Origin: a virus
Length of the DNA: 38,011 nt
Virus record (IMG/VR): IMGVR_UViG_3300042731_001106
Location: 1 to 38,011 of that record
Direction: 5' to 3' (one strand)
Under the pieces are notes generated by a model. It searched no databases and was not told the origin of the DNA. It saw only the letters and a program-made list of their open reading frames with translations. The position numbers and the translations under genes were made by a program. The first letter of the stretch is position 1, and every line of letters begins with the position of its first letter. Below, one piece after another: positions 257-30,866 of this stretch.

Positions 257-439
257 ATGTCGTGTAAGAACTGTGATGAGTTTGACTTAGATGCATTGGA
301 AGATTCGATGTTTGACCACATTATAACAGCTGCTGGCGATAAGTGGACAGTACGTTGTGATAGTGGTAGAATAGTTACATTCGACTCACGTCAAGAAGCG
401 AAGGAGTTTATTTTTAATGGCGGATTACAGGATGTCTGA
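257..439 (+). CDS. Small acidic hypothetical protein
   Basis: A 60-residue acidic protein beginning MSCKNCDEFDLDALEDS, with a Cys-x2-Cys at residues 3-6. The segment KWTVRCDSGRIVTFDSRQEAK looks like a small beta-rich fold. AGGT lies about seven bases before the ATG. Its last 23 bases overlap the start of the oxygenase gene at 417, so the two are probably translated from one message. No family is recognised. The CxxC could bind a metal, but a single pair is weak evidence. Confidence 0.55.
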   Translation: MSCKNCDEFDLDALEDSMFDHIITAAGDKWTVRCDSGRIVTFDSRQEAKEFIFNGGLQDV

Positions 440-12620: not shown

Positions 12621-14581
12621 TACCTTACTGTGACGACGAGATGCCCATTACTATCTATATTGAATTCCAGACCGCTTGGTGCGAAGAACTGGTGTGTGTT
12701 CAAAGGTGACGAATACTCATCATATGAGATATTTGTCTGTCTGCCAGCGTACACAATGGTCAAATTAGTTGTACCTGGTTGGGGTTTTCTGATGATATAG
12801 TAGTCACCAGCGTCCCCACTTTCTTTCCAGTTAACACCATTATACGTTTTGAATGTATTCTGGCTAGTATTGTAAAAAATTTGACCATTGACAGGGGATG
12901 AAGGATCAGTAGCACCAGTGATATCAATCTTTTCAGAAGTTGCAGAACCAGCAGCTAACTTAGCAGTGGTCACATTCAAGTTTCTGATGACATCAGTGGT
13001 AACTGCTTCAGAACCACCTGTGCTATTAAGTTTAGCACTGGTGACAGAATCGTCAGTCAGTGCAGTATTAGCGTCCACAGCACCTGGGGCAATCTTGGCT
13101 GTAGTCACTGCTCCGTCTGCCAACTTAGGATTGGTGACAGACAAGTTAATAATTTTAGTTGTAGACACCGACAGGTCGTCCAAAGTATCTGTCTGGACTC
13201 GGGTGAAGTCCTGCAGCGTACCAGTTGCAGTGGACGGTGACATAAACGAATACCCTGCAGAAAATACAGAGTTAATTGCACCGTTATTATACCGTACTCT
13301 CACATAGTATTGTGTAGAAGGACGGATAGAATCTGTCGGAATTGGGAATGTAGTTCTATTTGTAGTGTCAATAGACGCAACAATCACTTTATTGGTGAAC
13401 CCAGCATCAGTTGCAACCTCCCAGTCACTATGTACGTGTGTCTGAGCCGCAGCAGGTGTAGCAACAAATGCACTAGATGCAACGTCAAGTCTATCGTAAA
13501 TGGTAGACTCTACAACACTAGTAATTGCAGGGCACTGCAGTTCAGCAGGAACAGCAGATGTTGCAAAGTAAATAGGTTCTGACCATTCGGAGTACCAGTT
13601 AGCACTCTGAAGGTCAACATACTGATAACGGACACGAACGTAATATGTTCTGTCCTCTTCTAAAATACCACTAGCAATAGTGATAGATGTTTTGTTGTTA
13701 ATATCATTAGCAGCCTCATAGACTAGACCACTAGTGTTACTAATCTGTGATGTTGCTGTGTATCCACCAGCCAGAGGAGCAAGACCAGCATCACTACCAA
13801 AAGTAGGAGTCAATGCAATCTGCCAGGTAGATGACACGTGAGTAGCACCATTGATACCAGAAAAACCAGAACCAGAAATGGTGGGTGTCAGAGTAACATT
13901 CGTCGCGGCATTCACAGGTGCTGTGATGCTAGGACGATTGATCTTGGGACTAACGTTAGTCTGTGTATCAGTATAGAATGATACAGGTGCACTATACTCA
14001 GAGTTAGTACCAGTATTATCCCTGTATCTTACTCTAACGAAGTACAGTGTATTATACGCCAAAGTTTGTGGCGTAAACTGTGTCAGGCTAGATGGTGTAT
14101 CCAGCAGTTCTTCGTGGATATTAGTGAACAGAAAATCTGTTGCAATCTGCCAATCAGTTCTAGCGTGTGTGTTACTACCACTGTAAGCAGATGATAAGAT
14201 CACGGGAATCAACGCCGTGGGCGATGCTATCGTAACCGTTGGGGTCTGAATAGGTAAACCAGTATTAAATTCAGCGACCTTCGACCAGTTTGAGATATTT
14301 GCATCAGGAGTTGCATCGTCACGATGCCTAATTCTAATATAATAATGAGTATTACTCTGCAGTGTTGATGCAGGAAGTGTCAACGACGTTTTATTAACCG
14401 TGTCGTTTTGGTTGTATACCAGTTCACTAGAGCCGAAAGTATCCGCTGTTGCAATCTGCCAGTCAGTTGACTGGTGAGCACCAACCCCAGTCTCTCCACT
14501 GAATGTAGTGGAGAAGATGGTTGGTGTCAAAGACGCTGGCGACGGAATACTGCCCAGTGCGGGTGGGTAGATTAGTGCCAT
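12620..14581 (-). CDS. Tail fibre-like protein with fibronectin III-like repeats
   Basis: A 653-residue protein with four fibronectin type III-like repeats of about 100-120 residues. Each is marked by a TDWQIATD-type strand (residues about 40, 143, 252 and 384) and a downstream YxVRVRYRD-type strand followed by an aromatic or SEWS-like end. After residue 440 comes a shaft of KI/KL heptad-like repeats (KLADGAVTTAKIAPGAVD; later KLAAGSATSEKIDITGAT), then a small C-terminal domain (VNGQIFYNTSQNTFKTYNGV; FAPSGLEFNIDSNGHLVVTV). These domain types are common in tail fibres and adhesins. It starts 24 bases after the stop of the giant gene. Confidence 0.8.
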   Translation of the reverse strand: MALIYPPALGSIPSPASLTPTIFSTTFSGETGVGAHQSTDWQIATADTFGSSELVYNQNDTVNKTSLTLPASTLQSNTHYYIRIRHRDDATPDANISNWSKVAEFNTGLPIQTPTVTIASPTALIPVILSSAYSGSNTHARTDWQIATDFLFTNIHEELLDTPSSLTQFTPQTLAYNTLYFVRVRYRDNTGTNSEYSAPVSFYTDTQTNVSPKINRPSITAPVNAATNVTLTPTISGSGFSGINGATHVSSTWQIALTPTFGSDAGLAPLAGGYTATSQISNTSGLVYEAANDINNKTSITIASGILEEDRTYYVRVRYQYVDLQSANWYSEWSEPIYFATSAVPAELQCPAITSVVESTIYDRLDVASSAFVATPAAAQTHVHSDWEVATDAGFTNKVIVASIDTTNRTTFPIPTDSIRPSTQYYVRVRYNNGAINSVFSAGYSFMSPSTATGTLQDFTRVQTDTLDDLSVSTTKIINLSVTNPKLADGAVTTAKIAPGAVDANTALTDDSVTSAKLNSTGGSEAVTTDVIRNLNVTTAKLAAGSATSEKIDITGATDPSSPVNGQIFYNTSQNTFKTYNGVNWKESGDAGDYYIIRKPQPGTTNLTIVYAGRQTNISYDEYSSPLNTHQFFAPSGLEFNIDSNGHLVVTVR

Positions 14582-14605: not shown

Positions 14606-17600
14606 TTATGCGCAAGTGGGGTTACAGTCACCCAAGTAGCTGAACAGAACTGGCCAAGGAGCAGGGACTTGGAAGTCCAGGGATCTTGGCGAAATGCCGT
14701 CAGTCACTTTAATCTGTGCCACACCCTTCATACCGATGATCGGTTGTTCAGCGTGACCGCGATCACGCAACGGTTTGATAAAGTTACAGAAGTAGTCGTT
14801 CGACGGAGTAATGCAAGCACCGTTAGAGGTGTATGCAAAGTCGTAAGTGTGATCCTGGCAAGGATCAGCAATAGCAGTCAGGTTGATCAGGTCAACCAGA
14901 TCGAACGGCGACTCAACCAGTTCGACCCACAATGTGTAGACCTTCTGAGTACCACGTGCAGGGAAGATAGCAGGTTGAATGTCATTCTTAACTGCGAAAT
15001 CCACAGGCAGGTTGATGCTTGTATCACCACGGAACGGGCAATCGCGGAGCAGACCAGTTGCAGTAGCCAGTTGTCCACTGTAGGTGCTGAAGTCACCAGT
15101 GTTGACTACGGTAGGACCGTTAGCCATATTAGCGTCATTCAGTGTGAAGACAGTTCTCGTACTACCAGTGGTAGTTGCCATATACGGGAACTCGTTAATC
15201 AAACGCAGTCTCCAGGTAAATTGACCAGCATCGATAGTGTACGAGCAGGTCACATCTTGTGTACCATTGTTGGTGACAGTGAAGTTCTGTGCACCAGCGT
15301 AGTAATCCTGAATTTGCAGTGTGTTGATGTCAATGTAAGGCAGTGCACTCAGAGGTGCAGGACCCACGTCAATAACGAAGGAGCGAATCAGAACGTTACC
15401 GAAGTAATCACCACAGGTCAGAGTAGTATCAACGAAGCCTTGATCGTGACGCAGGTAACCGTTAGAAACAGTACCAGTCCAACCGTTGTCGTATTCATAC
15501 CACCACATACCCAGTTCAGGCGGGTTAGCAATCACGCTGATCTCGTTAGAGACAGAGGAGTATGCATCACCATTGCCAAGAACAACATAGTAGGTGTTAG
15601 GATCGTTCTCACCGTGAGGAACACCCTTACAAGGCAAGTCAGTGTTACGGATAGGAACACCAGCGTTGTCTAGCGGGGGCAGCAGCTGAGAGGAGGACTG
15701 AACAGGAATCTCAATATAAGATCCACTGTAGTCAACACGCAGCGGGAACTCTTCATCGAACGAGATATAGTTCTCTCTGTAGATGCTAGCACCGTCCAGA
15801 GTACAGGAGCTATGGTATGCAGTTTGATCGTTACCATAGTCTCTTCTCGATCTGAAGTGAGGAGAGTTAAGAGGGATGTAAGTAGGATAGGTATTTGAAA
15901 GTGTATCCCAGTTGTAAGACTTAGCACCAGTTGTGGTGTTGTAGCTATACAGTTTCTTGTACCAGAGATATTCAATCATCTGGTCACTGCAGTTCAGTTC
16001 CACAGGATAGCGACCCAAGTTAGGCAATCTACCAGAGGACTGATAAGCAAGAGTGTTGGGATAGTGTGTCAACTGACCATACTCTGTGTTAACAGCGTAA
16101 GTGTTACCAGTAATTGCAGTAGCACCAGCATACATCGTGAGGTTAGGCTGTGCAGGCAGAGCAGGTCTGTTAGAAACAGTCAACTGCAGAGTGTTGGAAA
16201 GCAGAGCATTATATGTGCTCGTGAAGTCCAGGTGCTGCGATGCAAATGTGCTACCACCACTTTGACCGAAGTAGATGCTGGACAGTGGTTCACTCTCAAG
16301 TGCAATGTAATCAACAAATGCACCAGCGGTGCCAGGTGTACCATAACGGCGAACCTTAGAACCAGTGATAGTGTTGCCGATAGCAGAGGAGCGCAGTTCC
16401 AGATCCTTACCAGCCCAGGAAGGATCACTGACATCGAAGCGATAGGTAGCACCCTTAGCAACTTCAAACACAGTAGAACCAGACTGGTTCACGACGGTAG
16501 CGTAATCTGTACCAGATGCCACCAGGTCAAACGTCACGCGATAGCGCAGTTTACAGCGGAAGAACTGTTGATCCAGGTTCCACCACTTATTCACGACCAG
16601 GTTACAGATAGCCAGTTCGTGACCAGTGACATCTTCAAATCTCTCAATGTAAGAGTAGAAGTAGTTACGGGCATCGACATTATTTGTCCAGAGGTCAGGA
16701 CCTTCCTGATCACAGGATGTAGCAGCTGTAGTGTTACCAGTCGAGTACTCGTTAATGTTGTGCCAATCAGTGTTACCATCTCTAGTAGCATAGATTTGCC
16801 ACTGAGGCAGATACTCAAACCTTGCATTGTCATATCCAGTCTGATATGCAATGATTCTGAAAGCCTTATAAGTCAGAGGACGTGAATACCACTCATTTGC
16901 TGCCCAGAGAGCATTATCTTGAGGCTGTCCGTATTGCTTGGTAACAGCATCATAGTCGATAGTTTTACTGACACCACCATACTTGATCTCAATGTTCTGA
17001 ACAGTAACTGTAGTGTTAGTAAGTTGAATCGTATAGGTCTGAGTTTGCCCAGAAATATTTTCTTCAACTGTAAGTGTCAGGTCCAGCGTTGTGGTGTTAG
17101 TCAAGACACCACTCAGAACACCAGTCTCAGTATCGAATGAGAGACCAGTTCCTGCAATAGAATCACCAGTCAGAGTATAATCTCTGTCAAGGATTGTCTC
17201 GTTAGCATAGGTTCTCAGGAAAGAGACACCCAGTTGCAGGTTGACGGTATCACCAATGTTGAATGTACCCAGTGCGCCAGCGGCTGTATACCAGGTAGTC
17301 AACAGGTTGATGAACGGAGAAACAACACCACTCATCACACCAGTGTCAACACCACGGTCAACAGGCAGATAGACAATCTCGGTACCTTGACCTTGACCAG
17401 CGTCTTCTTGTGCTTCAGTCTGGAAGTACAGTTTGTTGCCAACAGGGTTCAGATCCATCCAACGTTGGATACCATCACTACGCTGCTTTGTACCTTCCAG
17501 GTTAGCAATCTTAAGAAGGTTACCACCTTGCTCAGAGTAAGAAGCAGTAAACTGTGCGGCGTTGGGCTCAATCTCAATACGATTGTTGCCAGGATCCACA

Positions 17601-20600
17601 TCAGTGATGGTGTGCCAGTAGTTCTCCATAATGTTGAACTCGATACCACCGATGTCATAGACATAGGAGCTACCAGGTGCAGGAGTGCTACCAGGGAACA
17701 CAGGATCAGAGTAGAACTCGTTACCTAAGATGTAAGGATATGCGGGATTACCATTGTCATCTTCAGTGATGAAGTATGCATAGGTACCATTCGGATAGTC
17801 AGGAGTCTTACAGTAGCGACCGTTTCTGCTATCCAGGTCACCAATGATAATACGCTCTGCCATATTAGAATGGTTATAGCAGAAGTAGTACAGAATCTTC
17901 GGTGCACTGCTTGTAGGTGTGATCTCAATAGATCTCTGTGTAGCAGTATCGAAACCAGCAGCATATTCTGCATAGGTGACAGCAACGTTCTCCAGTTTGT
18001 AAACGATACCATCCTGATAGACAGCGTTCACATCACCAACAGTCTGACCAGCCACGTGCCAACCTTGTGCTGTTGCTTCACCATAAGTGGAGAACAACAT
18101 AGCGTGGCTGGTGTTGGAAGCATCACTCTGATTAAAGATATACTTGCAACCTTTACGGAAGTTAAATGCAGGCTTCTCTTCATTACCTGTCAGACCACCA
18201 CCAGAGATATAATAACGACCACCAGAACCAGTATTGGTAGCACTAGAAACCTGAACAGTAAATGTAGTTTCTAATGCATCTTGATCGATGTTACCTTGAT
18301 ACTCATAGTCCTCAACAAATGCACCATAAGGATAGGTGCTAACAGCGGGACGTGAACCAAACATATCAGGCACTCTGTTTGGCAGCTTCAGTTCATATGC
18401 AGTCTTCATACGAATAACAGAAGACGATGCATCTAAAGCATCAGAGTATCCATAAGGACCATAGATCGGATAGCCATCGAAGGACATACCCAAGATCTTA
18501 GAGTGACCATTTGTATGACGCTTATAATCACCCTGAACGTTGCTGTTGACGTTCACAGTGTTACCCATTCTGATGCCTGTACCGACATAGTAGAGGGTGT
18601 TAGGAGCGTCCTGAGGGACGACAATCGTTACCGTACGCTCAGATGCAGTCGCGAAGGAGTTTGCATAGGTCACAGCGTCTACAGCAGCGCCATTAAGGCG
18701 ATATGTGACGCCACTGCTATACTTCACACCACCATTATGCACACCATCGTCTGTAGTTGACAGATAGATGGGGTTGCCAGTGTTGGTAGAGTCGTTCTGG
18801 TTAAAGATATATGTGTTACCTCTGGTGAAGTTAATTGTAGGAGCAGCAGTAGGAGTCGTGAACTCATCACCACGGATCACGAACTGATCATCAGAACCAG
18901 TGCCGAAGTATGGATCACCAGACTCCTTAGCAGCCACAGTAACCACATAGTTGACAGTTCTATAACCCAGATCGAAGTAAGTAGAACTCAGGTAACTAGA
19001 TGCAGTGATAGCAGATGTACCATATGCAGCGAGCAGTTTGCTGCTGTTGTAACCATAAACATTCGCAGCGTTGGGGAAACCACCGTAAGCATCTTCACCG
19101 ACCAAGTTACCATTAGTCACGCTGTTGTAAGTCCAACCAGGAGTCGGTCCTTCTTCCTTACTGTAGTGATACATCAGAACACCAGTGGTAGTAAGACCGA
19201 AGGGGTTGTTACTACGAAGAGGTTTCTCTGTTCTAACAGTAGTACCATAGTTGGTACCACCTCTCCAGTTAAAGTTCTGGTTGAATGAATGACTACCAAC
19301 GCTATTCGGGTTACCAGATGTAATAGCAATCGTGGCAACACCAGTAGCCTGAATACCACCAGCAACGTTCGGAGGATCAATAACAACTGTAGGTGCCAGG
19401 TTGTATCCACTACCAGCATCAACAATCGTCAGACCAGACACATAACCATCCAGCACCGACAGGTTTGCAGTTGCTGCAGCACCAACACCACCGCCACCAG
19501 TAAATGACACGTTAGCGTAGGTATAACCAACACCAGCTTCATCCACTGTGACGCCAGACACAACACCAATCTGTGTACCAATGGTACAACCAGCAGATGC
19601 AGGTTGCTCGAAGACAGGGTTCTGAGGTGCATTCATTGCCTCAGTAACTGCTTCACCATAGTATTGATCACCCAGAATGTACGGGAATGCAGGGTTGTTA
19701 GATGCATCAACCGTCATAAAGTAAGCGTAAGTACCACCAGGGAACTCAGGTGTGATACCGAATCTACCGTTGCGACGGTCAAGAGAACCAGTTCCCACAT
19801 ATTCATAGTCTTCCACAAACGAACCCATCGGATATGCAGTTGTAGAGGGTGCATAACCTTGTGGCTCAGAGAGTGTGATCGTACCCGTCATTGCCTGAGC
19901 ATTCTCAGACACATAGTAATAGGTACCTGCTGCAGCAGTTGTTGTATTCCACAGAATAGTAGCGTTGTGACTACCATTGTTCGTCACAGAAGCAACAACC
20001 TGAGTCGGGTTGTAAGGAGCAGGAACAGTCTGGATCCACATCGGGTGGGTCACAGTTGTACCACCGCCGCCACCAGCAGATTGAATAGTGATCGTACCGA
20101 CCATATTACTGTGATACTCACACTGATAGTAGTAAGTACCAGCAGAACCAGCACCAGGAGTCCAAGAAACAGTACCAGACTCAGTACCTTGGTTAGTAAC
20201 ACCAGTGATCTGGTTACCAGTACCAGTACCAGCCTGTGTCTTCAGGTAGAACGGGTGACCAGATGCAGACACCGTGAAGTTGATAGTATCACCTTCGTAG
20301 AATGTCAATGCAGGGTCAGAACCATTGATATTACCAGATCTGTCGGAACCAGAGACACTGTAGTCACTAGCGCTAGATGCAGTAACAACTAAGTTGTAGG
20401 TATTCGGTGTGCTACCGCCGCCGCCACCAGTGGTGTAAGAAGCGTTAACATTGAACACAAGGTTATCACCAACATTAGCAGCGATTGCAACGTCAGTACC
20501 TGCCGATTGCCCCGTGAAATCATAGTCCAGCGAATCATCTGCGGTAACACTCCAGTTGTAAGTAGAACCAGCATACTGATCACCAGGACGTGAACTTCTT

Positions 20601-23600
20601 AGTGAGTAAGAAGATGTCATTCTCGCCAGTGTAGTTGGCGATGCAGGGCTAGCGTAACCAATGGGACCATAGATGGGATATCCATCATATGCATAACCAA
20701 TGATCGGAGAGTGAGCAGTTGCTTCAGTAATGTCTCTCGTGGTATGAGAAGGCAATGCAGCAGTGTTAGCAGTAGTTGTAACAGATGCAGCGTTACCGTA
20801 TCCAGAATACAGAGAGCAATAGTAGAAAAGGTTGGGGCTGTTAGGTTGCAGCTGCAGATATGTACCAGTTCCAGCCTGTCCATCACCAGGTGTACCCTGA
20901 TAGCGGATACCAACTTCATACTCAACACCACCTTGAGTGTGGATACCGTCTTGAGTAGCAGAGAGACGGAAGGGGTAACCAGTGTTAGAAGAATCAGACT
21001 GATCGAAGAAGTAAGTATTACCTTCAGTCAGAATGATGTTAGGAGTCAAGCCAGCATTCAGATAATACTTAGAAGCAGTGACTGTGACTGTATATGTTGT
21101 AGTAGAACCTTTCCAAGTATTGAGAAGGAACTTAGCATTGTTGTAGTAGTACGCACCACTAGAATCAGTGGCACCACCACCATTGTCAGCACCAAACTTC
21201 GCAGAGTTGAAGATAGTGTTGAATGTATATCCAGTTGGGCAACCAGTACCATCAGGCAGGTCAGTATTAAGACCGTGTGAATAGTGACGCAGTTGAACAC
21301 CATTAAGTGCCAGACCAACACTAGGTTCTGCTGTAGACAGCATAGGTGTCGCATCAGCAAGGTTTCTACCACCACGGTAGATCCAGGTGTGGTTGTAGGA
21401 CTGACCAGTAATGCCGTTAGAGTTGTTAGCATTAGGGAAGTTACCATACAATGCAGGCTGAGGCAGGTTGTCAGAAACTGCAGTCAGTGCACGTGTGGTC
21501 TGGTTCAGAGACACAGATGTAGTAGATCCACCACCGCTAACGAAACTGGAGTCAGGTGCCCAGTTAGTAGCACCTTGGTTAGGTGGAGCAGATGGAGCAA
21601 TCGTGACGGTAGGTGCCTCAGAATATCCAGAACCAGGGTTGGAGATATTAGCACCAGTCACAACACCATCGGTCACGATGGCAGTTGCAGCAGCACCTTG
21701 ACCACCGCCACCACCGAAGGTGATAGCAGGCAGGTTCAGTGGGTTGTAACCAGAACCACCGTTAGTAATGGTGATAGTAGTAACACCACCACCAGTCAGT
21801 GAGATCTGTGCTGTAGCAGTTGCACCTTGACCATCACCAGTAATCTCAACTGTAGGTACAGTAGTGTATCCAGAACCAGGTTGATCAACGTTGATGCTAG
21901 TCACAGCACCACCAGTTAGTGTGATCGATGCAGTTGCAGTAGCATCAGATCCACCACCACCAGTGAACGAAACACCAGGTGTCAAGGTGTAACCAGAACC
22001 TTGGTTCTGCACAGTCAGGTTAGAGATGTAACCAGATGTACCACCAGAGGGGAAGGTACCGACAAGACCAGGAGAAGGGTTGTTGTCAGTGACCATATTC
22101 AGCAGACCACCAGCCACATAGTATGCAGCAGTAGCAGATGAACCACTGCTCACCCACACATCAGTAATGATGTCTTCTGCGGGAGCAGCACGCGGAACAC
22201 GGAACTGAATTTTGTCACCCAGAGTAGGATTAAAGCGAGCGTATTCACTACCCAGTGTGATGCTAACAACGTTAGATGCAGCACCAGTACCAATGAAAGA
22301 GTTGACACCATCCAACGTGATCTCATCGAGATCATTGTAAGGATACTGACTGACAGTACCACCACCAAATTCTTGACCCACAGGAGCAGTGGTAGATCCA
22401 CTATATGCTCTCTCGTAGTCCCAATCAATGTTTCTGCGCAACCATTCTTTTGCCATTGCAGGCACAGATTTACCTTCATAGGTTGCTCTGTTCTGATAGC
22501 CCTTCACACCCAGGTACTGACAGACCACACCAGCAGTCAGAGGACCAGAGAAGGATGTACCTTGAATACAACCGTAGTAACTAGAAGTAACAGTATTGTA
22601 TGCACTGTTGCTGTTCCAGTAATACAGAGGAACGTAAATAGACTCACCAGGTGCACTAGTGGTAACACCAGTACCGTAGTTAGAGAACGTGGTGAAGGTA
22701 TCGATCATCGTGGTTGCACCCACAGAGATCTTGTCACAAATACCTTCCATATTGTACTGATAGTCTTGAGGACCAGCAGTACGAGGACCAGGGTTGAACT
22801 TAGCCTGGTAACCACCATACTGAACGTTGTAACCGAAACCGTTACCAGCGGAACGAACGAACACAATACCAGCATCATTTGCTGACTTCTCGTAATCGTC
22901 CATTGCAGTGTCTGCCTCATAGGCACCACTGTCAAATCCAGGTTCGTTCTGAGGAACGAAACGATAGTTCTCGGAAGGAATGTTAACACCAACAGATGCG
23001 TTGATCACAGCAGGTCTGTTGTTACCCTTCCAGTTTGGATGGCTAGGATCGTTATGGTTGATAATAGCAAGGATAGCATTCACATAACTGGACAACAGTC
23101 CACTACCATTACTACCCTGAGTCTTCAGAGCATAGATCCTAGTTTTTCTAGAGACACCGTGCTGTAAACCAGTAGCACAGATGGCACAGTTTGTACCGTG
23201 ACCATTGTCATCTTCATTAGAGTTTGCCTCACCATTAACAGTGTAACCAGAGTTATACCCAGGAACCTCATAAACACGATAGTTTGCCTGCTCAGTAGCA
23301 CCGTTCAGGTCAGTAACGTGATCAGGGTGATACAGTTCAGGGTGGAGATTAGCACCAGTTGCGTTGACAGGACGTGACGCACCACGCACACCAGCGTCAA
23401 TCACATACAGGTCAACACCATCACCATCTTCGGTGTAGGAGTACAGACCATAGTCAAGACCATTAGTCTGCTGAGAAATTCTTGCCAGATACCACTTACA
23501 GAACATTGTGGCTCTGAAGTGAACTGTAGGAGCAACAAATTCACTGCCACGCACACCCACCTTGGGTGTTTCTTGGGCGTAAATGTAAATCTGCTTTGGT

Positions 23601-24289
23601 GTTGTCTGGGTGTAAGTAAGACTAATCTGCGCACCAGCGGTACCAGGTGTACCAACACGGGTCACACCAACATTATACTCAGTACCACCATTGTGTGTAC
23701 CATCAGGAGTGGTAGAGAACGCAGGAGTATAGTTAAAGTTTGACGGATCAGAGACATTGAGAATCAGCGTATGTCCTGGCATCAGGAATGTCAGCTGAGG
23801 GCACTCGTAAATTACCTCTGCAAAGTACTTCGGACCAGAAGTAGTATTGGTGATAGTAACATCGATTTCATAATTAGTACCAGCACCAACGCTATAGGGG
23901 ATAACGTTACCGTATGCTTGAGGACTGATCTGTTGGGCAAGCAGGTCAGGATCATCATTTTCGGTAGCCAGAGCAGTAGCAACGGCTAAACGATCAGTCT
24001 CAATAGGGAGAACATCACTATCATTCAGATTATTAGCAATCTGTGCATCTTCATAGACACCAGTGATAGTCGTTTCTCTATCCCAGATAGCAGAATGCAC
24101 CTCTGGAAAATCATCACCCTTAAGGATATTGATGAAGTTATCGTCTTTCGACGAGAAATCCAAGAAGATTGTCTTAATTCTAGAAAGATCTTGGAAACTC
24201 TCTAGAGTCGTAAAACGCTGCTTTGCTCTCTCGATTACAGCAGCTGCTTGATTTTCTTTAGAAATCCTTGCAATAATTCTATTGCTCAT
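14606..24289 (-). CDS. Giant virion protein with subtilisin-like protease domain and copper-site-like repeats
   Basis: A 3227-residue protein with no signal peptide seen. Domains in order: a degenerate cupredoxin-like repeat (about 165-245); a subtilase (S8) domain with D298 (YVIDAG), H364 (NGHGTN), N483 (SAGNGF) and S579 (GTSFSGP); Gly-rich GSGY repeats (about 750-920 and 1575-1660); YHYH-like segments (DGYPIYGP at about 1200 and 1935); cupredoxin-like repeats with full His...CxxHxxM sets (H1345/C1390/H1393/M1396 and H2062/C2137/H2140/M2143); further degenerate copies (about 1087-1167, 1415-1465, 1823-1910 and 2609-2684); a putative-Ig segment with GLSFDTETGVLSG (about 2382); and beta-rich sequence to the end. 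A late octamer lies 35 bases upstream. It is probably a fibre or adhesin. The protease might process virion proteins or attack host surface proteins. The fold calls other than the subtilase are inference. Confidence 0.85.
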   Translation of the reverse strand: MSNRIIARISKENQAAAVIERAKQRFTTLESFQDLSRIKTIFLDFSSKDDNFINILKGDDFPEVHSAIWDRETTITGVYEDAQIANNLNDSDVLPIETDRLAVATALATENDDPDLLAQQISPQAYGNVIPYSVGAGTNYEIDVTITNTTSGPKYFAEVIYECPQLTFLMPGHTLILNVSDPSNFNYTPAFSTTPDGTHNGGTEYNVGVTRVGTPGTAGAQISLTYTQTTPKQIYIYAQETPKVGVRGSEFVAPTVHFRATMFCKWYLARISQQTNGLDYGLYSYTEDGDGVDLYVIDAGVRGASRPVNATGANLHPELYHPDHVTDLNGATEQANYRVYEVPGYNSGYTVNGEANSNEDDNGHGTNCAICATGLQHGVSRKTRIYALKTQGSNGSGLLSSYVNAILAIINHNDPSHPNWKGNNRPAVINASVGVNIPSENYRFVPQNEPGFDSGAYEADTAMDDYEKSANDAGIVFVRSAGNGFGYNVQYGGYQAKFNPGPRTAGPQDYQYNMEGICDKISVGATTMIDTFTTFSNYGTGVTTSAPGESIYVPLYYWNSNSAYNTVTSSYYGCIQGTSFSGPLTAGVVCQYLGVKGYQNRATYEGKSVPAMAKEWLRRNIDWDYERAYSGSTTAPVGQEFGGGTVSQYPYNDLDEITLDGVNSFIGTGAASNVVSITLGSEYARFNPTLGDKIQFRVPRAAPAEDIITDVWVSSGSSATAAYYVAGGLLNMVTDNNPSPGLVGTFPSGGTSGYISNLTVQNQGSGYTLTPGVSFTGGGGSDATATASITLTGGAVTSINVDQPGSGYTTVPTVEITGDGQGATATAQISLTGGGVTTITITNGGSGYNPLNLPAITFGGGGGQGAAATAIVTDGVVTGANISNPGSGYSEAPTVTIAPSAPPNQGATNWAPDSSFVSGGGSTTSVSLNQTTRALTAVSDNLPQPALYGNFPNANNSNGITGQSYNHTWIYRGGRNLADATPMLSTAEPSVGLALNGVQLRHYSHGLNTDLPDGTGCPTGYTFNTIFNSAKFGADNGGGATDSSGAYYYNNAKFLLNTWKGSTTTYTVTVTASKYYLNAGLTPNIILTEGNTYFFDQSDSSNTGYPFRLSATQDGIHTQGGVEYEVGIRYQGTPGDGQAGTGTYLQLQPNSPNLFYYCSLYSGYGNAASVTTTANTAALPSHTTRDITEATAHSPIIGYAYDGYPIYGPIGYASPASPTTLARMTSSYSLRSSRPGDQYAGSTYNWSVTADDSLDYDFTGQSAGTDVAIAANVGDNLVFNVNASYTTGGGGGSTPNTYNLVVTASSASDYSVSGSDRSGNINGSDPALTFYEGDTINFTVSASGHPFYLKTQAGTGTGNQITGVTNQGTESGTVSWTPGAGSAGTYYYQCEYHSNMVGTITIQSAGGGGGTTVTHPMWIQTVPAPYNPTQVVASVTNNGSHNATILWNTTTAAAGTYYYVSENAQAMTGTITLSEPQGYAPSTTAYPMGSFVEDYEYVGTGSLDRRNGRFGITPEFPGGTYAYFMTVDASNNPAFPYILGDQYYGEAVTEAMNAPQNPVFEQPASAGCTIGTQIGVVSGVTVDEAGVGYTYANVSFTGGGGVGAAATANLSVLDGYVSGLTIVDAGSGYNLAPTVVIDPPNVAGGIQATGVATIAITSGNPNSVGSHSFNQNFNWRGGTNYGTTVRTEKPLRSNNPFGLTTTGVLMYHYSKEEGPTPGWTYNSVTNGNLVGEDAYGGFPNAANVYGYNSSKLLAAYGTSAITASSYLSSTYFDLGYRTVNYVVTVAAKESGDPYFGTGSDDQFVIRGDEFTTPTAAPTINFTRGNTYIFNQNDSTNTGNPIYLSTTDDGVHNGGVKYSSGVTYRLNGAAVDAVTYANSFATASERTVTIVVPQDAPNTLYYVGTGIRMGNTVNVNSNVQGDYKRHTNGHSKILGMSFDGYPIYGPYGYSDALDASSSVIRMKTAYELKLPNRVPDMFGSRPAVSTYPYGAFVEDYEYQGNIDQDALETTFTVQVSSATNTGSGGRYYISGGGLTGNEEKPAFNFRKGCKYIFNQSDASNTSHAMLFSTYGEATAQGWHVAGQTVGDVNAVYQDGIVYKLENVAVTYAEYAAGFDTATQRSIEITPTSSAPKILYYFCYNHSNMAERIIIGDLDSRNGRYCKTPDYPNGTYAYFITEDDNGNPAYPYILGNEFYSDPVFPGSTPAPGSSYVYDIGGIEFNIMENYWHTITDVDPGNNRIEIEPNAAQFTASYSEQGGNLLKIANLEGTKQRSDGIQRWMDLNPVGNKLYFQTEAQEDAGQGQGTEIVYLPVDRGVDTGVMSGVVSPFINLLTTWYTAAGALGTFNIGDTVNLQLGVSFLRTYANETILDRDYTLTGDSIAGTGLSFDTETGVLSGVLTNTTTLDLTLTVEENISGQTQTYTIQLTNTTVTVQNIEIKYGGVSKTIDYDAVTKQYGQPQDNALWAANEWYSRPLTYKAFRIIAYQTGYDNARFEYLPQWQIYATRDGNTDWHNINEYSTGNTTAATSCDQEGPDLWTNNVDARNYFYSYIERFEDVTGHELAICNLVVNKWWNLDQQFFRCKLRYRVTFDLVASGTDYATVVNQSGSTVFEVAKGATYRFDVSDPSWAGKDLELRSSAIGNTITGSKVRRYGTPGTAGAFVDYIALESEPLSSIYFGQSGGSTFASQHLDFTSTYNALLSNTLQLTVSNRPALPAQPNLTMYAGATAITGNTYAVNTEYGQLTHYPNTLAYQSSGRLPNLGRYPVELNCSDQMIEYLWYKKLYSYNTTTGAKSYNWDTLSNTYPTYIPLNSPHFRSRRDYGNDQTAYHSSCTLDGASIYRENYISFDEEFPLRVDYSGSYIEIPVQSSSQLLPPLDNAGVPIRNTDLPCKGVPHGENDPNTYYVVLGNGDAYSSVSNEISVIANPPELGMWWYEYDNGWTGTVSNGYLRHDQGFVDTTLTCGDYFGNVLIRSFVIDVGPAPLSALPYIDINTLQIQDYYAGAQNFTVTNNGTQDVTCSYTIDAGQFTWRLRLINEFPYMATTTGSTRTVFTLNDANMANGPTVVNTGDFSTYSGQLATATGLLRDCPFRGDTSINLPVDFAVKNDIQPAIFPARGTQKVYTLWVELVESPFDLVDLINLTAIADPCQDHTYDFAYTSNGACITPSNDYFCNFIKPLRDRGHAEQPIIGMKGVAQIKVTDGISPRSLDFQVPAPWPVLFSYLGDCNPTCA
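19320..19560 (-). repeat. Second block of GSGY-type coding repeats
   Basis: Within the giant gene, residues about 1575-1660 contain two more copies of the Gly-rich unit (VDEAGVGYTYANVSFTGGGG; LTIVDAGSGYNLAPTVVIDP). They are separated by about 650 residues from the first block. Confidence 0.6.
21575..22035 (-). repeat. Tandem GSGY-type coding repeats in giant gene
   Basis: Residues about 752-905 contain four tandem units of roughly 38-45 residues. Each carries GSGY or GSGYxxxP, then a hydrophobic-T-GGGG stretch, then an Ala/Thr-rich stretch (ATATAQISLTGG), then V-T-x-I/A-x-I/V. Nucleotide similarity between units is evident from recurring ccaccaccagt/ttgcagtagc patterns. They probably form a repetitive beta shaft. 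Confidence 0.65.
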
Positions 24290-24322: not shown

Positions 24323-25003
24323 TTATTTATCAGCATAGGACCTTATGAAGTCGTGGCGGATAGCATCGTAGTGCTGAAATGTTTCCCATAATGGATGATT
24401 AGGATCAATATCATCAGGAACACACCCAAATGCTTTGCACGTAGAGCACATCATTTGGTAGTGATTGAACATAAAATTCCTGTCAGCCTGTTTCCTGAAC
24501 ATAGATTCAGACCAAAACACAGAAACTCTACGCTCTCCCTTGGTGACAGGCATCACTTTATGTGGAGTTCCTGTTGGATAACTGATTGCGTGACCAGCAG
24601 GTAACTTAAAATAAAGATGTTCGGTACCATATCTTAGTACCAATTCTCCACCTTCATACTCACTAGGATCATTCAGAAATAATGTAGTGCTAATGTCATT
24701 TCTGATATCCATCTCTGCAGAATCAACGTGCCAGTTGTAATGCATCCCTTCTGTGTATCTACAGAAGAGACCGACAGTATTTTTCGTCAACTGCATAAAG
24801 TACCGACACTCGTCAGTCACTTCAAAAGCCTGTTGAATGATGTTCCAGCAAGCATCTGCGTGCTCGGGTAACATCTGCATATTATTTTTTAGTTCTTTAT
24901 GATCAGAACCAGTTTTTTCACCATCTTCAAATTCACTAATATCATAGAAGTTCGCAACGTGATTAAGTTGAACTTCATTCAATAACTCATAATTAAAAAG
25001 CAT
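24323..25003 (-). CDS. PKHD-type 2OG-Fe(II) hydroxylase
   Basis: A 226-residue protein of the PKHD/PiuC-like hydroxylase type. The facial triad is H92-V-D94 (YNWHVDSAEM) and H148 (YPTGTPHKVMPV). Arg 158 or 159 in KGERRVSVFW is the expected 2OG contact, and FLNDPSEYEGGELVL is the usual core strand pair. The C-terminus carries a Cys pair (MMCSTCKAFGC) that could bind metal. It starts two bases after the stop of the chaperone-like gene and ends inside the late promoter of the giant gene. Its position between virion genes suggests a virion-protein substrate, which is inference. Confidence 0.88.
   Translation of the reverse strand: MLFNYELLNEVQLNHVANFYDISEFEDGEKTGSDHKELKNNMQMLPEHADACWNIIQQAFEVTDECRYFMQLTKNTVGLFCRYTEGMHYNWHVDSAEMDIRNDISTTLFLNDPSEYEGGELVLRYGTEHLYFKLPAGHAISYPTGTPHKVMPVTKGERRVSVFWSESMFRKQADRNFMFNHYQMMCSTCKAFGCVPDDIDPNHPLWETFQHYDAIRHDFIRSYADK
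24324..24331 (-). promoter_or_regulatory. T4-type late promoter octamer GATAAATA
   Basis: GATAAATA on the minus strand, 35 bases upstream of the giant gene's ATG at 24289. It encodes the last residues D-K and two bases of the TAA stop of the oxygenase gene upstream. Confidence 0.72.
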
Positions 25004-25005
25004 AA

Positions 25006-25665
25006 TCAGGGAACGAAACTAGAAGATTCAGGTGTAACTGGCCAATCAGTCCAATCTGCAGGACTATAGGGATCAGAAAATGTAGAAGGAAAATCTCTCA
25101 ATCTCTGTCTATATGTTGCCCAATTTGCTTTTTCTTCATCAGACAGTTGACAGTCAGGAAGTTGTGTCCAATCACAATTAGTCAGACGAATGTCACGATC
25201 TGCACGCAATGTAGTCATATTGGCAGGAACCATTGTCTCAACATACGCCGCTTGCGCTGCTGCTGCAGCCGCTGCTTCTGCCTGTTCTGCAATCCACGCA
25301 TCTCTTTTTGCTTCAAAGAGAGGATACAAAGCATCAACAATAGCAGTAATGTTTGCAGTTACTGGACCACCAGTGTCAGGTGTGTGGTTGTAATTATTTG
25401 GAAACTGACCAGTTCTATCAGTTTTCTCAATCAAATAATATGGTAGTTCTCCAGATCCTGTTGCTGGTGTCCAATACCACAGGATATTCATATCATCAAC
25501 ACCAGGGACGTTGATGTCATTAAGAGCGGGCAGAACTGTGTTATCCCATTCATCATCAGTTACATAGAAGCACTGCACATCTTGCACTCCACTATTGAAG
25601 GAGCCCAGCATCTTCTGGTAAGAATTGATATAGAAATGTGCTGTTGAAAAATTGAGTGCCGACAT
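25006..25665 (-). CDS. Tail-assembly-chaperone (APC)-like protein
   Basis: A 219-residue protein. Residues 154-215 (LRADRDIRLTNCDWTQLPDC, then LSDEEKANWATYRQRLRDFP and DWPVTP) match the Phage_tail_APC-type pattern (RDxxLxxCDWTQLPD...WxxYRQxLRDxP). That domain occurs at the end of fibre-associated and tail-assembly proteins of many marine phages. Residues 123-145 are an Ala-rich helix (AEQAEAAAAAAAQAAYVE). The N-terminal 110 residues are a mixed domain with QCFYVTDDEWDNTVLPALND. It may help fold or attach a fibre. A GATAAATA octamer lies 36-43 bases upstream of its start, inside the preceding gene. Confidence 0.8.
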   Translation of the reverse strand: MSALNFSTAHFYINSYQKMLGSFNSGVQDVQCFYVTDDEWDNTVLPALNDINVPGVDDMNILWYWTPATGSGELPYYLIEKTDRTGQFPNNYNHTPDTGGPVTANITAIVDALYPLFEAKRDAWIAEQAEAAAAAAAQAAYVETMVPANMTTLRADRDIRLTNCDWTQLPDCQLSDEEKANWATYRQRLRDFPSTFSDPYSPADWTDWPVTPESSSFVP

Positions 25666-25666
25666 T

Positions 25667-26332
25667 TTACGAATTGAGATAGTACCAGCCTGTCAGAATA
25701 TATTTATCGCCAGACAGAAGCGTGTTCCCTCTGTGAGGGTGTGTATAACCAGCTGGCCACATAACAACTGTGCCAGTAGTAGGAGGAACGCGACGACACT
25801 GATCTAAAAATTCAGTCTCGCCACCATATTCAGGAGGAACATCATTTAAGTAGATTGTCCAAACGATAACACGATGAGAGTGGTCCAGCCCCATCGATTC
25901 ATAGTGCCACTTATGATATCCACCACCTTTTTCAGTATGTTGAAACTTAGCAACAACACTAGCTATATGCTGTGTCATTAACTGACCATACCGATGAACG
26001 TAATGATTAAGACAGGACTGCAAATACTGTGCACACGTCTGTGCTAATTCAGGATTATTATGGTGAATCATAATCTGTTTATCCTTTCTACCGAGATGGG
26101 TATCAGGAAACTGCCAGTCACCAGTTGAGATGTTTTGTTCGTTCAGTTCATCACCGAATTTGACACTAGCATTTTGATATGCAGCCTTATACCAGTGAAT
26201 GAACTTCTTACATTCACTCTCTGGCATAAAGTTTTTCCATACCGCAATGTGATCGGTAAAATCAAAATTAGTCAACTTCTCATCCATCATCAGTTCGAGA
26301 GGACGGATGGGAGTCACTCCATTATTTTCCAT
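25667..26332 (-). CDS. 2OG-Fe(II) oxygenase, prolyl-4-hydroxylase-like, HxE variant
   Basis: A 221-residue homologue of the 417-1094 protein. Shared elements are a GGGYHKWHYES triad region, IYLNDVPPEYGGETEFLD, MWPAGYTHPHRGNTLLSG and a final DKYILTGWYY. The first metal motif is H143-Y-E145, with Glu in place of Asp; the distal His is H200 and the 2OG Lys is K210. HxE is tolerated in some family members such as clavaminate synthase, so activity is plausible. It starts three bases after the stop of the collar protein 26336-29197. A virion-protein substrate is possible but unproved. Confidence 0.87.
   Translation of the reverse strand: MENNGVTPIRPLELMMDEKLTNFDFTDHIAVWKNFMPESECKKFIHWYKAAYQNASVKFGDELNEQNISTGDWQFPDTHLGRKDKQIMIHHNNPELAQTCAQYLQSCLNHYVHRYGQLMTQHIASVVAKFQHTEKGGGYHKWHYESMGLDHSHRVIVWTIYLNDVPPEYGGETEFLDQCRRVPPTTGTVVMWPAGYTHPHRGNTLLSGDKYILTGWYYLNS
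25701..25708 (-). promoter_or_regulatory. T4-type late promoter octamer GATAAATA (internal)
   Basis: GATAAATA on the minus strand lies within the 3' end of the 25667-26332 gene (codons for D-K-Y), 36-43 bases upstream of the start at 25665. The spacing equals that of the octamer before the 30866-37351 gene, which supports a functional site despite the coding overlap. Confidence 0.5.
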
Positions 26333-26335
26333 AAA

Positions 26336-29197
26336 TTAAGGATAAATTGCTACACCGCATTCGTTAAAGTTGCCCAGCAGTCCGTTGTACAGAGCACGTT
26401 GACCAAGTTCATTACTTGCTCCAGGAACCAGACCGTTCGCATCATTATAGATTGCAGTGTTGAGGTCTGTCAAGGTTGTGAGGTTTGCATTGTTGATGAA
26501 CTCATTAGTCCAACCATCAAATGCAGTTCCATCAGGCTTACGAGACAAGATATTATCGTAAGAGGTCACAATCTGATCAAACAGTTGCTGATAGGTGATA
26601 GATCCCTTAGCAGTCTGAGTGAGCCAAGAACTCACAAATCCAGTCACATAAAGTTCATTGCTGGTTGTAGTACCATCATTATACTCCAGGTAACCAGTAA
26701 CACCAGTACCATATCCAGCTGTTGTAGTACCTGTACCAGCAGTACAGTTAACAGTCAACACAGCAGTTTCTGTAGTAGAACCAGCAGGACCCTGTACAGT
26801 CAAACTATATGTCGTGGTCTCTGTCGGACTCACAGTTGTACTACCACTGACAGTACTAGCATTGAAGTTCGACGCAGTAACTGTAGTTGCATCTGTCGAA
26901 CTCCAGGTAAGAGTAGAAGATGTAACAGGATTAGACTCACCACTACCAATAGCCAGAGTGGTTGGGTTCAGTGTCATCGTTACAACGGGCAACTGTGTAA
27001 TAGAAACAGTTGTCTGCTGTGTCGTAGTACCCGTGGAGTTAGTAACTGCAAGGGTGTAAGTAGTAGAGGCAGTAATACCATCTGTACTGTACGAACCATT
27101 CAATGTAGTCTGAGCATCCCATCCTGCATCAGTAGGACTGGAAGTAAATACTGCTGTTTCACCATTCTGAGTGCTCCAAGTAACAGTAGCAGGATCTGGA
27201 TCACTAATGTTGTAAGAAGATGGCGATGCAGACAGAGAAACTGTAGGCAACGGCAGAGGATCAACAACTAGATCAGCAGTAGCTGTTGTATTTCCATACG
27301 CATTACTCACAACTACATTATATGTGATTGTACCAGAGGTTGTGGGTGTAACCGAAACAGAGTGAGTAACAGCACTAGATGCACCAGGAATGTTAGAAGA
27401 AACAAACGTAGTAGCGTCAGTAGCATTGTACTGAACAATAGCGGACTCTCCTATTGTAATCGTGGACGGGAAGATCGTCACGAATGCTGTTGGAGGATCC
27501 TGACCCAGTATTCCAACGCTAACACTAGATGTTGTACTTCCATACGTGTTAGCCACCGTCATAGAATATGTGGTAGCAGTAGTTGGGTTGACTACCACAC
27601 TTCCACCTGTAGCAGTAGAACTTGTCGTAACACCAGGAATACTAACAGCCGTGATGCTAGTAGCACCAGGAGAACTCCAAGTAATAGTAGAAGCAGATCC
27701 AGAGGTAACAGCGTCAGGAGAAGCGCTAAGAGTCAGAGCAGGAGCAGCCGCATAAGTAACAGTAATTGTGCTGGTTGTCTTAAGTTCTGTACCATAGAAA
27801 ATCTTGACAGTGTAGATAGCACTAGCACCACCCTCAGCAGGACCCTCAAGGGTCATATTGACAGTATCGCCAGAAATAACATTAGTAGCAGTACCAGAAG
27901 AGTTAGCACCTTGACCATTCACATTGATAGGTGTACTACCGACATTCTGACCACCAGTCTTAGTAACCTGAACAGTGAAAGAATACACAAGATCAGCACC
28001 AGACAGAGTAATAGATGTCGATGCAAGACCACTAGCAGAATTGGTGGTAACTACTTGGTTAGCAGGAGTATCTGGGGTGTTATCACCTGTATCAGTAGGC
28101 GGTGGGGGTGCAGCGTAAACAGTACTATTCACACCCATATAGATCATATAAGCAGTCTCTTGGAATTCAGGTTTGATATCAGGGTTATTGTCAAGACCCA
28201 AATCAACATCCAGTTCAAATCCAATAGCGGTGCCGTTAACAGCAACGTTAGACAGCTGATATGAAAGTTGATTATATTTTGGTTTAATTAAAGCGTGACC
28301 TGCAGATCCATTATCATATGGGGCACCAAGGCGACAAGCACCTTGAGTGTTCATATTCACATTAGATTCTGTACAGAAGTCGTTATACCAACCGTTACCA
28401 ACGCTACCATTAGTGTTTTGGAATCTCTCCCCAACAGCATCACCAAAGCCTTTGTGATAAGAAGTAGTACCAGAGATAGCAGATCTAAAACTCATCCAGT
28501 GGGAATGAGGTTGTGTACCAGACGGGGGTGATGCTGCACCAAAATTATGATTACCTCTTGCTGAAGCACCAGTTTTAATGCCACTATCACCATTACCAGG
28601 AGATGTACGGTCAGCTTGGAACGTTCCACCCATAGGTGAAACGCTGTCGAATGTACCGTGAGAGTGAGCAGGTTGGTTAGGTGCTGTGTGAGTTGACAAA
28701 GCACCAGTAGTAACATCTAAGGTACCACCAGAAAGACTACCATAAATCGTAGCAGTTCTACTAGTATTATATGCAATTTGAACACTACCCTCTTGCACTT
28801 GGACTCTAGGAGCAACGTCAGCAAGTGTTAGGATATTTTGTCCACCTTTTGATCCACAAGTATCAGAATCACCACTATCGTGATCAACTAGTTGGGGAGA
28901 ACTACCATCAGGTCTTAGTCTACCAGTACCAATAGGTCTTCTATCTCTCAAGTCTGGGACTTTGAAGGTACCAGTGATGCTAGGATAATTATTTTCTGCA
29001 CTGGCATTACCACCATAGGTATTACCAATGATCTGATACAAAGCCAAGAACTCATTAGGATTCAGGCTTCTACCATTACATTCTTGCCATCCATCAGGTG
29101 CATAATAAGCGCCATTCTCATCCTTCGGCATCATACAAATGGTACCGACTTGTACACCACTCCAGGATGGTCCGAGTTGTGAGTAATACTTTGCCAT
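26336..29197 (-). CDS. Tail-collar protein with Ig-like repeats
   Basis: A 953-residue protein. Residues 15-92 form a phage tail-collar domain (VGTICMMP, GWQECNGRSLNPNEF, GNTYGG, TFKVPDLRDRRPIGTG). H178-S-H180 and H231-S-H233 resemble the HxH metal motif of T4 gp12-type short fibres. A PPPPT linker at about 366 is followed by about four Ig-like repeats (485-815), each with an LSASPxxxxxG start, a TWSS strand and a TTTYSMTVxNxYG end. The C-terminus contains DNILSRKPDGTAFDGWTNEF (about 875-895), resembling DUF4214-type segments. It probably is a receptor-binding short fibre with an extended adhesive tail. It shares a one-base overlap (TAATG) with 29197-30087. Confidence 0.85.
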   Translation of the reverse strand: MAKYYSQLGPSWSGVQVGTICMMPKDENGAYYAPDGWQECNGRSLNPNEFLALYQIIGNTYGGNASAENNYPSITGTFKVPDLRDRRPIGTGRLRPDGSSPQLVDHDSGDSDTCGSKGGQNILTLADVAPRVQVQEGSVQIAYNTSRTATIYGSLSGGTLDVTTGALSTHTAPNQPAHSHGTFDSVSPMGGTFQADRTSPGNGDSGIKTGASARGNHNFGAASPPSGTQPHSHWMSFRSAISGTTSYHKGFGDAVGERFQNTNGSVGNGWYNDFCTESNVNMNTQGACRLGAPYDNGSAGHALIKPKYNQLSYQLSNVAVNGTAIGFELDVDLGLDNNPDIKPEFQETAYMIYMGVNSTVYAAPPPPTDTGDNTPDTPANQVVTTNSASGLASTSITLSGADLVYSFTVQVTKTGGQNVGSTPINVNGQGANSSGTATNVISGDTVNMTLEGPAEGGASAIYTVKIFYGTELKTTSTITVTYAAAPALTLSASPDAVTSGSASTITWSSPGATSITAVSIPGVTTSSTATGGSVVVNPTTATTYSMTVANTYGSTTSSVSVGILGQDPPTAFVTIFPSTITIGESAIVQYNATDATTFVSSNIPGASSAVTHSVSVTPTTSGTITYNVVVSNAYGNTTATADLVVDPLPLPTVSLSASPSSYNISDPDPATVTWSTQNGETAVFTSSPTDAGWDAQTTLNGSYSTDGITASTTYTLAVTNSTGTTTQQTTVSITQLPVVTMTLNPTTLAIGSGESNPVTSSTLTWSSTDATTVTASNFNASTVSGSTTVSPTETTTYSLTVQGPAGSTTETAVLTVNCTAGTGTTTAGYGTGVTGYLEYNDGTTTSNELYVTGFVSSWLTQTAKGSITYQQLFDQIVTSYDNILSRKPDGTAFDGWTNEFINNANLTTLTDLNTAIYNDANGLVPGASNELGQRALYNGLLGNFNECGVAIYP

Positions 29198-30087
29198 TAG
29201 AATTTGATGATGTACTCTAAGATCATATAAGGAGTGGTCACGTGATCCAAAGCTTCTCTTGGATCTGCAGTAACCATCGCTTGAGCAGATGTTCCTGCAA
29301 AAGAGATATTCTGCGGGGGATGGGTATATTCTAAGTTATTTGTACATCCATATCCCGATATTTGGTGATTATGGGAAAATGATGCTGCAGAAGTAGCGAT
29401 AGTTTTAGTGGTCTTATTAACACCGTTAATGTAGATATCTTTACTATCCTGCATATCGGTGTCAATACCCATATTTACGGTTGTTGTTACGTTAAAGTTT
29501 CCACCAGGGTGTTGGTGAGCAGCAGTAAATGAAGTATCAATAGAAGTTGGTGTTGTAGTTGTCGAACTCAATTGCAAAATTGGTGTACCTTCAAGAGATG
29601 TGTCAGTTCTACCAGGAGTAGTCACATATCCATTGAAAGAACTATAAACTGTGTTTTGAATAATTGCTTGATATCCAATACCAGCCCTTTCATATGTTCC
29701 ATTACCATCCATACGGGCATTACCCATAAATTGCTGACCAGCAGTGGCAGATGGTACCAAAACTTTCGCACCTAAATTCGGAACTGCGAAAGTACCGTTA
29801 ATAAAGTTATTGTCTGAATCAAAAGTAGGATTCAGAAGGGTTCCTCCAGCAACGCCAGTAGGATACCTACAAGCACTGACACCTCCGCCACCACTATTTC
29901 CAACGCCAATAATTCTCGCAAGTTCAGGATAGTCCCTTGCTTGATAGATAGAGCCATCACAGCGCAAATATCCACCAGGAACACGCTCATTCTTAACACT
30001 TACAGTTTGACATTCCCGTGAAAAAGGGAAAATCATCCCAGGTGCAACACCCTGATTCCCCCTTGCTGATGAATATACTCTAGCCAT
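29197..30087 (-). CDS. Tail-collar domain protein, short tail fibre-like
   Basis: A 296-residue protein. Residues 15-110 form a tail-collar domain (APGMIFPFSRE, GGYLRCDGSIYQARDYPELA, NGTFAVPNLGAKVLVPSA). HQH (about 191) and HNH (about 236) motifs in the distal part resemble the metal-binding HxH of trimeric short fibres. The C-terminus PYMILEYIIKF is typical for collar proteins. It lies between two other collar-domain genes, with one-base stop/start overlaps on both sides. Probably a receptor-binding fibre component. Confidence 0.86.
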   Translation of the reverse strand: MARVYSSARGNQGVAPGMIFPFSRECQTVSVKNERVPGGYLRCDGSIYQARDYPELARIIGVGNSGGGGVSACRYPTGVAGGTLLNPTFDSDNNFINGTFAVPNLGAKVLVPSATAGQQFMGNARMDGNGTYERAGIGYQAIIQNTVYSSFNGYVTTPGRTDTSLEGTPILQLSSTTTTPTSIDTSFTAAHQHPGGNFNVTTTVNMGIDTDMQDSKDIYINGVNKTTKTIATSAASFSHNHQISGYGCTNNLEYTHPPQNISFAGTSAQAMVTADPREALDHVTTPYMILEYIIKF

Positions 30088-30866
30088 TAGAATGCTTTGA
30101 TTATATAAACTGCTGTCTGATAAGGTGGTGTCAACTGAAGCGTGGCAGAACCAGCACCAGGATTATTATTTAGGGAGAGATTGTCACTGGAATACTGCTG
30201 TTGATAAGAAGCAGCACCCATACTTCCTTTATTCACAGTATATGTAATCGATCCGTGAGTATGCCCTGAAGAGTTATTTTGACGTGGAGCCTCTGCATCA
30301 TTAGGACCACCAACTCGCGCAAGACTCGCTTCTGTGTTTCCAGTCGCAAAGTCTCTATTTTTCTCACTACCAGTTTCAGCAGTTTTGTTACCACCGTGGA
30401 TCTGGGAATTACATCTCTCGATGGTTTCATTATGAGTGTGAGTGGGGATGTTCTCTCTGGAAAGCATTCTAGGTTGAATATATGCATCTCTACTCCACAT
30501 TGCATTAGAGTTTGTCATCTGCATTGCACCGAAAGAGACGGTTTTATTCGGTCTACCAGAAATACTCCAACTAGCATACAACCCAACGTTTCCTGATGAA
30601 GATCCACCTTGAGAAGTATATGTACTTCCCTTATGAACAGGCACTCTATTATTGTTCAAATTGGGAACATTAAAAGTGCCAGCATTATCAGACCCACCAT
30701 AAGTATAACCCAGGAGGTCCTTTAAAAGAGGATATCTATCATTCGGGAAACCAGCGCCATCGCAAGACAGCCATCCGTGAGGGATGTCACCACTGGATCC
30801 CGACCACGCCATAATTGTACCGATCGCGGCATTTTTAAAGCCGCGAATTTGTGCTAGATTTTTCAT
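30087..30866 (-). CDS. Tail-collar domain protein, short tail fibre-like
   Basis: A 259-residue protein from the ATG at 30866, which overlaps the TGA of 30866-37351 as TGATG; an upstream TTG at 30887 is not used. Residues 13-78 form a collar domain (AIGTIMAWSGSSGDIPHGWL, CDGAGF, RYPLLKDLLGYTYGG, TFNVPNLNNNRVPVHKG). HTH motifs at about 140 and 204 match the HxH metal site seen in T4 gp12-like fibres. The C-terminus PYQTAVYIIKAF resembles that of 29197-30087, consistent with duplication. Confidence 0.87.
   Translation of the reverse strand: MKNLAQIRGFKNAAIGTIMAWSGSSGDIPHGWLSCDGAGFPNDRYPLLKDLLGYTYGGSDNAGTFNVPNLNNNRVPVHKGSTYTSQGGSSSGNVGLYASWSISGRPNKTVSFGAMQMTNSNAMWSRDAYIQPRMLSRENIPTHTHNETIERCNSQIHGGNKTAETGSEKNRDFATGNTEASLARVGGPNDAEAPRQNNSSGHTHGSITYTVNKGSMGAASYQQQYSSDNLSLNNNPGAGSATLQLTPPYQTAVYIIKAF

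Follow-up and report, generated by a model that had tools for sequence, protein, structure and literature searches.

The window analysed here is a 38,011-nucleotide stretch of viral DNA (IMG/VR record IMGVR_UViG_3300042731_001106, positions 1 to 38,011), and its minus strand encodes P0001, a giant protein with a subtilase (peptidase S8) domain. The features of this gene and its surroundings are listed below.

14606..24289, minus strand: P0001, giant fibre-type protein with an S8 domain, 3227 aa (open reading frame; ~residues 720-2200 match PHROG virion/baseplate families)
24065..24289, minus strand: prodomain-like module, residues 1-75, beta-alpha-beta-beta-alpha-beta (AlphaFold2; ferredoxin-like fold matches)
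23525..23884, minus strand: cupredoxin-like module, ~residues 136-255, the window copy having lost its copper ligands (alignment; beta-rich model)
22484..23500, minus strand: subtilase (S8) catalytic domain, ~residues 264-602 (sequence, profile and fold matches)
23396..23398, minus strand: codon of the catalytic Asp298 (direct check and alignments of relatives)
23369..23386, minus strand: RGASRP, residues 302-307, in the D-H insertion (alignment columns)
23198..23200, minus strand: codon of the catalytic His364 (direct check and alignments of relatives)
22841..22843, minus strand: codon of the oxyanion-hole Asn483 (direct check and alignments of relatives)
22553..22555, minus strand: codon of the catalytic Ser579, TCC in the window (direct check and alignments of relatives)
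20060..20407, minus strand: plastocyanin-like module, residues 1295-1410, with CEYHSNM at residue 1390 (plastocyanin 1b3i, E 0.011)
18257..18514, minus strand: strongest of P0001's four YHYH (PF14240) stretches (Pfam scan)
12620..14581, minus strand: fn3/Ig-type tail-fibre gene downstream of P0001 (same order in relatives)
24323..26332, minus strand: upstream block of a 2OG-Fe(II) oxygenase, a tail assembly chaperone and a 2OG-Fe(II) oxygenase (same order in window-type relatives with room)
26336..37351, minus strand: tail-collar genes and a 2161-aa tail fibre (Pfam/PHROG matches)

The 38 kb hold four 2OG-Fe(II) oxygenase genes, at 417-1094 (+), 4421-5038 (-), 24323-25003 (-) and 25667-26332 (-), the last two immediately upstream of the S8 gene. 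A phage tail lysozyme (PF18013, E 1.7e-14) is encoded at 2707-3207 (-), and a 1400-aa protein at 5593-9795 (-) had no Pfam or PHROG match.

No near-identical relatives of the window were found by DNA among sequenced phages. Photosystem D1/D2-type genes occur in its close relatives L002, L003, L004 and L014, and L002 and L014 also encode T4-type gp23, gene content by which the window is a T4-like marine cyanophage. A 189-kb contig (L093, QCLS01000003.1) from the Prochlorococcus AG-418-C09 single-cell genome has the S8 gene adjoining a gp13-like gene, and the same single-cell genome has gp23 on its contig C3. The contig is probably a phage genome captured in or on the single cell, and its occurrence there ties the family to Prochlorococcus in nature.

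The initial annotation had placed a subtilisin-like active site formed by D298, H364, N483 and S579 in a 3227-residue protein, and its reading frame, positions and residues all proved exact. The four motifs are YVIDAG (residues 295-300, window 23407-23390), NGHGTN (residues 362-367, window 23206-23189), SAGNGF (residues 480-485, window 22852-22835) and GTSFSGP (residues 577-583, window 22561-22541). Their order is that of subtilases as claimed, whereas the claimed match in spacing did not hold: the D-H, H-N and N-S intervals are 66, 119 and 96 residues in P0001 versus 31, 87 and 65 in aqualysin (counted on the PDB phmmer alignment), an excess of 31-35 residues per interval. The motifs do lie within 22540-23410, but the feature is larger than this span, since the N-terminal segment of the S8 domain and the prodomain-like and cupredoxin-like domains reach position 24289. 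The insertion between Asp and His contains RGASRP, which was invariant in A1 and each of whose columns was kept in no fewer than 82 of the 84 relatives; in the alignments this hexapeptide is a mark of the cyanophage S8 family.

Profile and fold comparisons agreed with the motifs. When the N-terminal 672 aa alone were scanned against Pfam, PF00082 (Peptidase_S8) matched residues 321-594 with an E value of 3.9e-24 and a score of 85.9 bits, above the curated cut-off of 21.8; Peptidase_S8 was not listed by Pfam when the full 3227-aa protein was scanned. The best PDB match by phmmer was aqualysin-1 (E 5.8e-14, and 3.1e-28 with the family profile). Structure prediction, the check proposed at the outset, returned a proteinase K-type fold and not the subtilase-unlike one that was to count as refutation: the AlphaFold2 model of residues 1-672 (mean pLDDT 65, pTM 0.69, with moderate confidence at the Asn483 region and interior loops) matched keratinase, aqualysin and proteinase K in Foldseek with target TM scores of ~0.7-0.76, and for this moderately confident model the top seven matches had E values of ~1e-12 to 1e-11 and target TM scores of 0.71-0.76. 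A chance set of motifs is ruled out by the PF00082 and aqualysin-1 E values together with the predicted fold. With the D/H/N/S motif order, a profile score above the curated cut-off and the fold in agreement, P0001 is assigned by homology a genuine proteinase K-type subtilase domain, located, as first described, within a giant fibre-type protein with PHROG virion/baseplate families.

The active site was strictly conserved among relatives. In IMG/VR, 117 matching stretches were obtained and 80 were kept, and D, H, N and S were all present in 84 of 84 aligned relatives. Because the pattern of the first scan (NEDDNGHG) contained the catalytic His and could thus bias this count, the search was rerun with N-terminal-module queries that lack catalytic motifs. 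The resulting alignment had 82 distinct sequences, the window included, and all 73 that were uncut kept the four residues; the other nine were cut by contig ends, and each row short of a catalytic residue was such a locus. Selection bias as the source of the conservation is thereby ruled out. The His was retained even in the Prochlorococcus single-cell contig, where AHGTWC replaces GHGT, and among eight close relatives Ser579 had the codons TCC, TCT, TCA and TCG. In each non-identical pair of close relatives compared, dN of the S8 region was well below dS (0.11-0.17 versus at least 0.85) and was among the lowest of the compared regions; the ratios are a rough guide because dS was near saturation. 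The proposal of selection for keeping the active site is borne out by these data, and the subtilase is very probably catalytically active. Enzyme folds are often recruited by structural proteins, so P0001 could in principle carry a dead subtilase fold that serves as a binding or structural module only. We consider this very improbable, as the four residues were perfectly kept in both counts and, together with their surrounding motifs, are conserved with a strictness that one would not expect of a module used for binding alone.

Broken or early-stopping S8 frames were observed in three loci (L053, 2876-8003; L003, 9184-11836; L034, 790-3901); frameshifts or errors of assembly are suggested by how far away the next conserved gene lies.

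The S8 domain was N-terminal in all relatives, behind the beta-alpha-beta-beta-alpha-beta module, residues 1-70 of which were modelled in P0001 with pLDDT of ~84-91. Membership of this module in the propeptide family I9 was unsupported by sequence: Pfam I9 matched none of 47 members, and hhalign to I9 was insignificant (P 0.076, probability 0.7%). Foldseek returned generic ferredoxin-like folds, a common fold, with no I9 structure in the top 50. Given these three results, the propeptide reading is one that we infer from position and fold, both of which fit a subtilase propeptide and would suit a zymogen-like role. In ordinary pro-subtilases the propeptide directly precedes the protease, an arrangement shared by the S-BM3-type relatives, in which the module abuts S8 with no cupredoxin between. 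Hydropathy revealed no signal peptide or membrane segment in the S8 protein, so its synthesis is presumably cytoplasmic and its release due to lysis.

In P0001 the cupredoxin-like module follows residues 1-75 and precedes S8, a placement that is usual among relatives and not universal, as S-BM3 and three metagenomic relatives have such a module within S8, after the His motif and before the Asn motif. Its CxxHxxM motif was found in 56 of 84 relatives and is absent from the window. Beyond the S8 domain, P0001 has, besides the plastocyanin-like module with CEYHSNM, another with CYNHSNM (residue 2137, window ~17840-18160, minus strand), and the sequences of the two suggest possible copper sites within the structural protein. 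The C-terminal 860 aa (window 14609-17188, minus strand) had no match in phage isolates, and residues 2700-3227 were ~80% identical among close relatives.

The S8-bearing proteins were long throughout the family, mostly 1700-3250 aa, with ~1700-2100 aa for the P-HM1 type, ~2650 for the S-BM3 type and ~3240 for the window type; a few frames that were broken, of lesser length or truncated at the edge of a contig fall outside these classes. Room downstream of the S8 gene was available in 54 IMG/VR loci of the P-HM1 type, and in 52 of these the neck gene gp13 came next, usually followed by gp14 and gp15; the two exceptions were L034, with a shortened S8 frame and gp13 2 kb on, and L041, which had no gp13. 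The gp13 gene is also annotated after the S8 gene in P-HM1 and P-HM2. This adjacency is usual, is not known as required, and is absent from the window clade and S-BM3. In the window clade, the S8 gene is flanked by the oxygenase/tail chaperone/oxygenase block and the fn3-type fibre gene, and three collar genes and the 2161-aa tail fibre lie upstream of it. From the domain families and gene neighbours, the S8 protein is probably attached to the particle.

These neighbours would also suit an assembly or maturation protease, one that processes itself and adjacent tail, neck or fibre proteins and plays no part in host contact. Neck genes gp13/gp14 adjoin the S8 gene in most relatives, large structural proteins neighbour P0001 in the window, and the latent-enzyme architecture would suit such a task. 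We nevertheless regard this explanation as unlikely, if a serious contender, because the S8 gene is not accompanied by gp13 in the window clade, and because the gene was matched in only four distinct cyanophage isolates of the phage collection (P-HM1, P-HM2, MED4-213 and S-BM3), so that cyanophages in general build their necks and tails with no S8 enzyme. A narrower possibility, by analogy with self-cleaving fibre chaperone domains, is that the protease would only remove the N-terminal module of its own fibre and then be structurally inert. The N-terminal module and S8 do always occur together at the N-terminus, but maturation of this kind would neither release nor destroy the classical subtilase domain, and an unsystematic look identified no conserved second cleavage site; such a restricted function appears quite improbable.

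We tentatively favour, at a level somewhat short of probable, a reading in which P0001 carries a very probably active subtilase on a giant fibre-type protein, as a latent, self-processing and particle-anchored enzyme that trims host surface proteins. The starting point is the subtilase with its intact, conserved active site, as seen in the sequence. Residues 1-75, by fold and position, may be a propeptide that assists folding and inhibits the enzyme, which would be latent in the host cytoplasm, where the lack of a signal peptide would leave it. One self-cut near the propeptide end (~residues 75-135, or before W266) would then give a mature chain without the original N-terminus. Latency via the N-terminal module followed by self-cleavage is reasonably likely. 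The remaining chain, to judge from its protein family and gene neighbours, would anchor the enzyme at the tail, neck or fibre region. In the last and weakest step, the particle-bound enzyme might, after lysis, trim host surface proteins on contact, by which adsorption or membrane access would be helped. Action on host surface proteins is possible, a shade more doubtful than the reading as a whole and somewhat more likely than assembly processing. The presence of the S8 gene in few isolates counts against the favoured reading, since cyanophages generally do without the gene. More speculative, and in our view rather improbable, is a whole class of marine cyanophages in which a latent, self-activating subtilase on tail or neck fibres digests cyanobacterial surface proteins, with the copper-type domain aiding stability or control.

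If the favoured reading is true, the phage would possess an unusual means of entry or maturation, in the form of a classical protease that is borne on the virion and has a zymogen-like N-terminus; virion-borne sugar-cutting depolymerases, by contrast, are common. The question is directly testable, as P-HM1, P-HM2, MED4-213 and S-BM3 have laboratory hosts.

In Sullivan et al. 2010 (PMC3037559), an S8 peptidase (T4-GC518) is reported among the genes exclusive to P-HM1 and P-HM2, and the genes unique to these phages, the peptidase included, are suggested to be of possible relevance to how Prochlorococcus MED4 is infected. In GenBank the giant gene is numbered T4-GC 519, with S-BM3 annotated as 'peptidase S8' with T4-GC_519, and BFVD holds an S8/S53-domain protein of Synechococcus phage ACG-2014e. 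As these records precede our analysis, P0001 is, on sequence similarity, a member of the known cyanophage T4-GC 518/519 S8 peptidase family. On virion-borne S8 enzymes in cyanophages, our literature search found the 2010 mention alone, and the literature searched held no proteome of an S8-bearing cyanophage. What is added here is the zymogen-like/cupredoxin/S8 N-terminus, the strict active-site conservation in metagenomic relatives, the linkage to gp13 and the second location in which the cupredoxin occurs.

Compared with proteinase K-type subtilases such as aqualysin-1 and proteinase K, P0001 shares the order of the catalytic D/H/N/S and the fold, and differs in its longer intervals (relative to aqualysin), the lack of a signal peptide and the fusion to a fibre-type protein. 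A bacterial-type secreted proteinase matched in the Acinetobacter 'phage' MD-2021a was set aside, as its contig carries cellular genes (transporters, hydrolase). In Agrobacterium phage Atu_ph07, the 'Extracellular serine proteinase' (1251 aa) is, like P0001, a long protein whose S8 follows an N-terminal module, but the identity is 24%, the phage group is another and so is the C-terminal region. The S-BM3 'Peptidase S8' (WDS61281.1; 38% identity) resembles P0001 as a ~2650-aa giant protein with the N-terminal module and S8, encoded in a baseplate/fibre region, whereas its cupredoxin-like module lies within S8 and not before it. The closest counterparts in arrangement are the giant proteins of P-HM1, P-HM2 and MED4-213 (T4-GC 518/519), which match ~43-44% identically over 95-97% of the S8 query and have the N-terminal module, the cupredoxin-like module and S8 in the same order. 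The homology between P0001 and the P-HM1 protein covers these three modules (34% identity over residues 4-697), whereas the C-terminal parts of the P-HM1, P-HM2 and MED4-213 proteins are mostly unrelated to that of P0001. In these three phages the protein is also shorter (~1830-1850 aa versus 3227 in the window), the gene adjoins gp13, and the cupredoxin keeps CxxHxxM.
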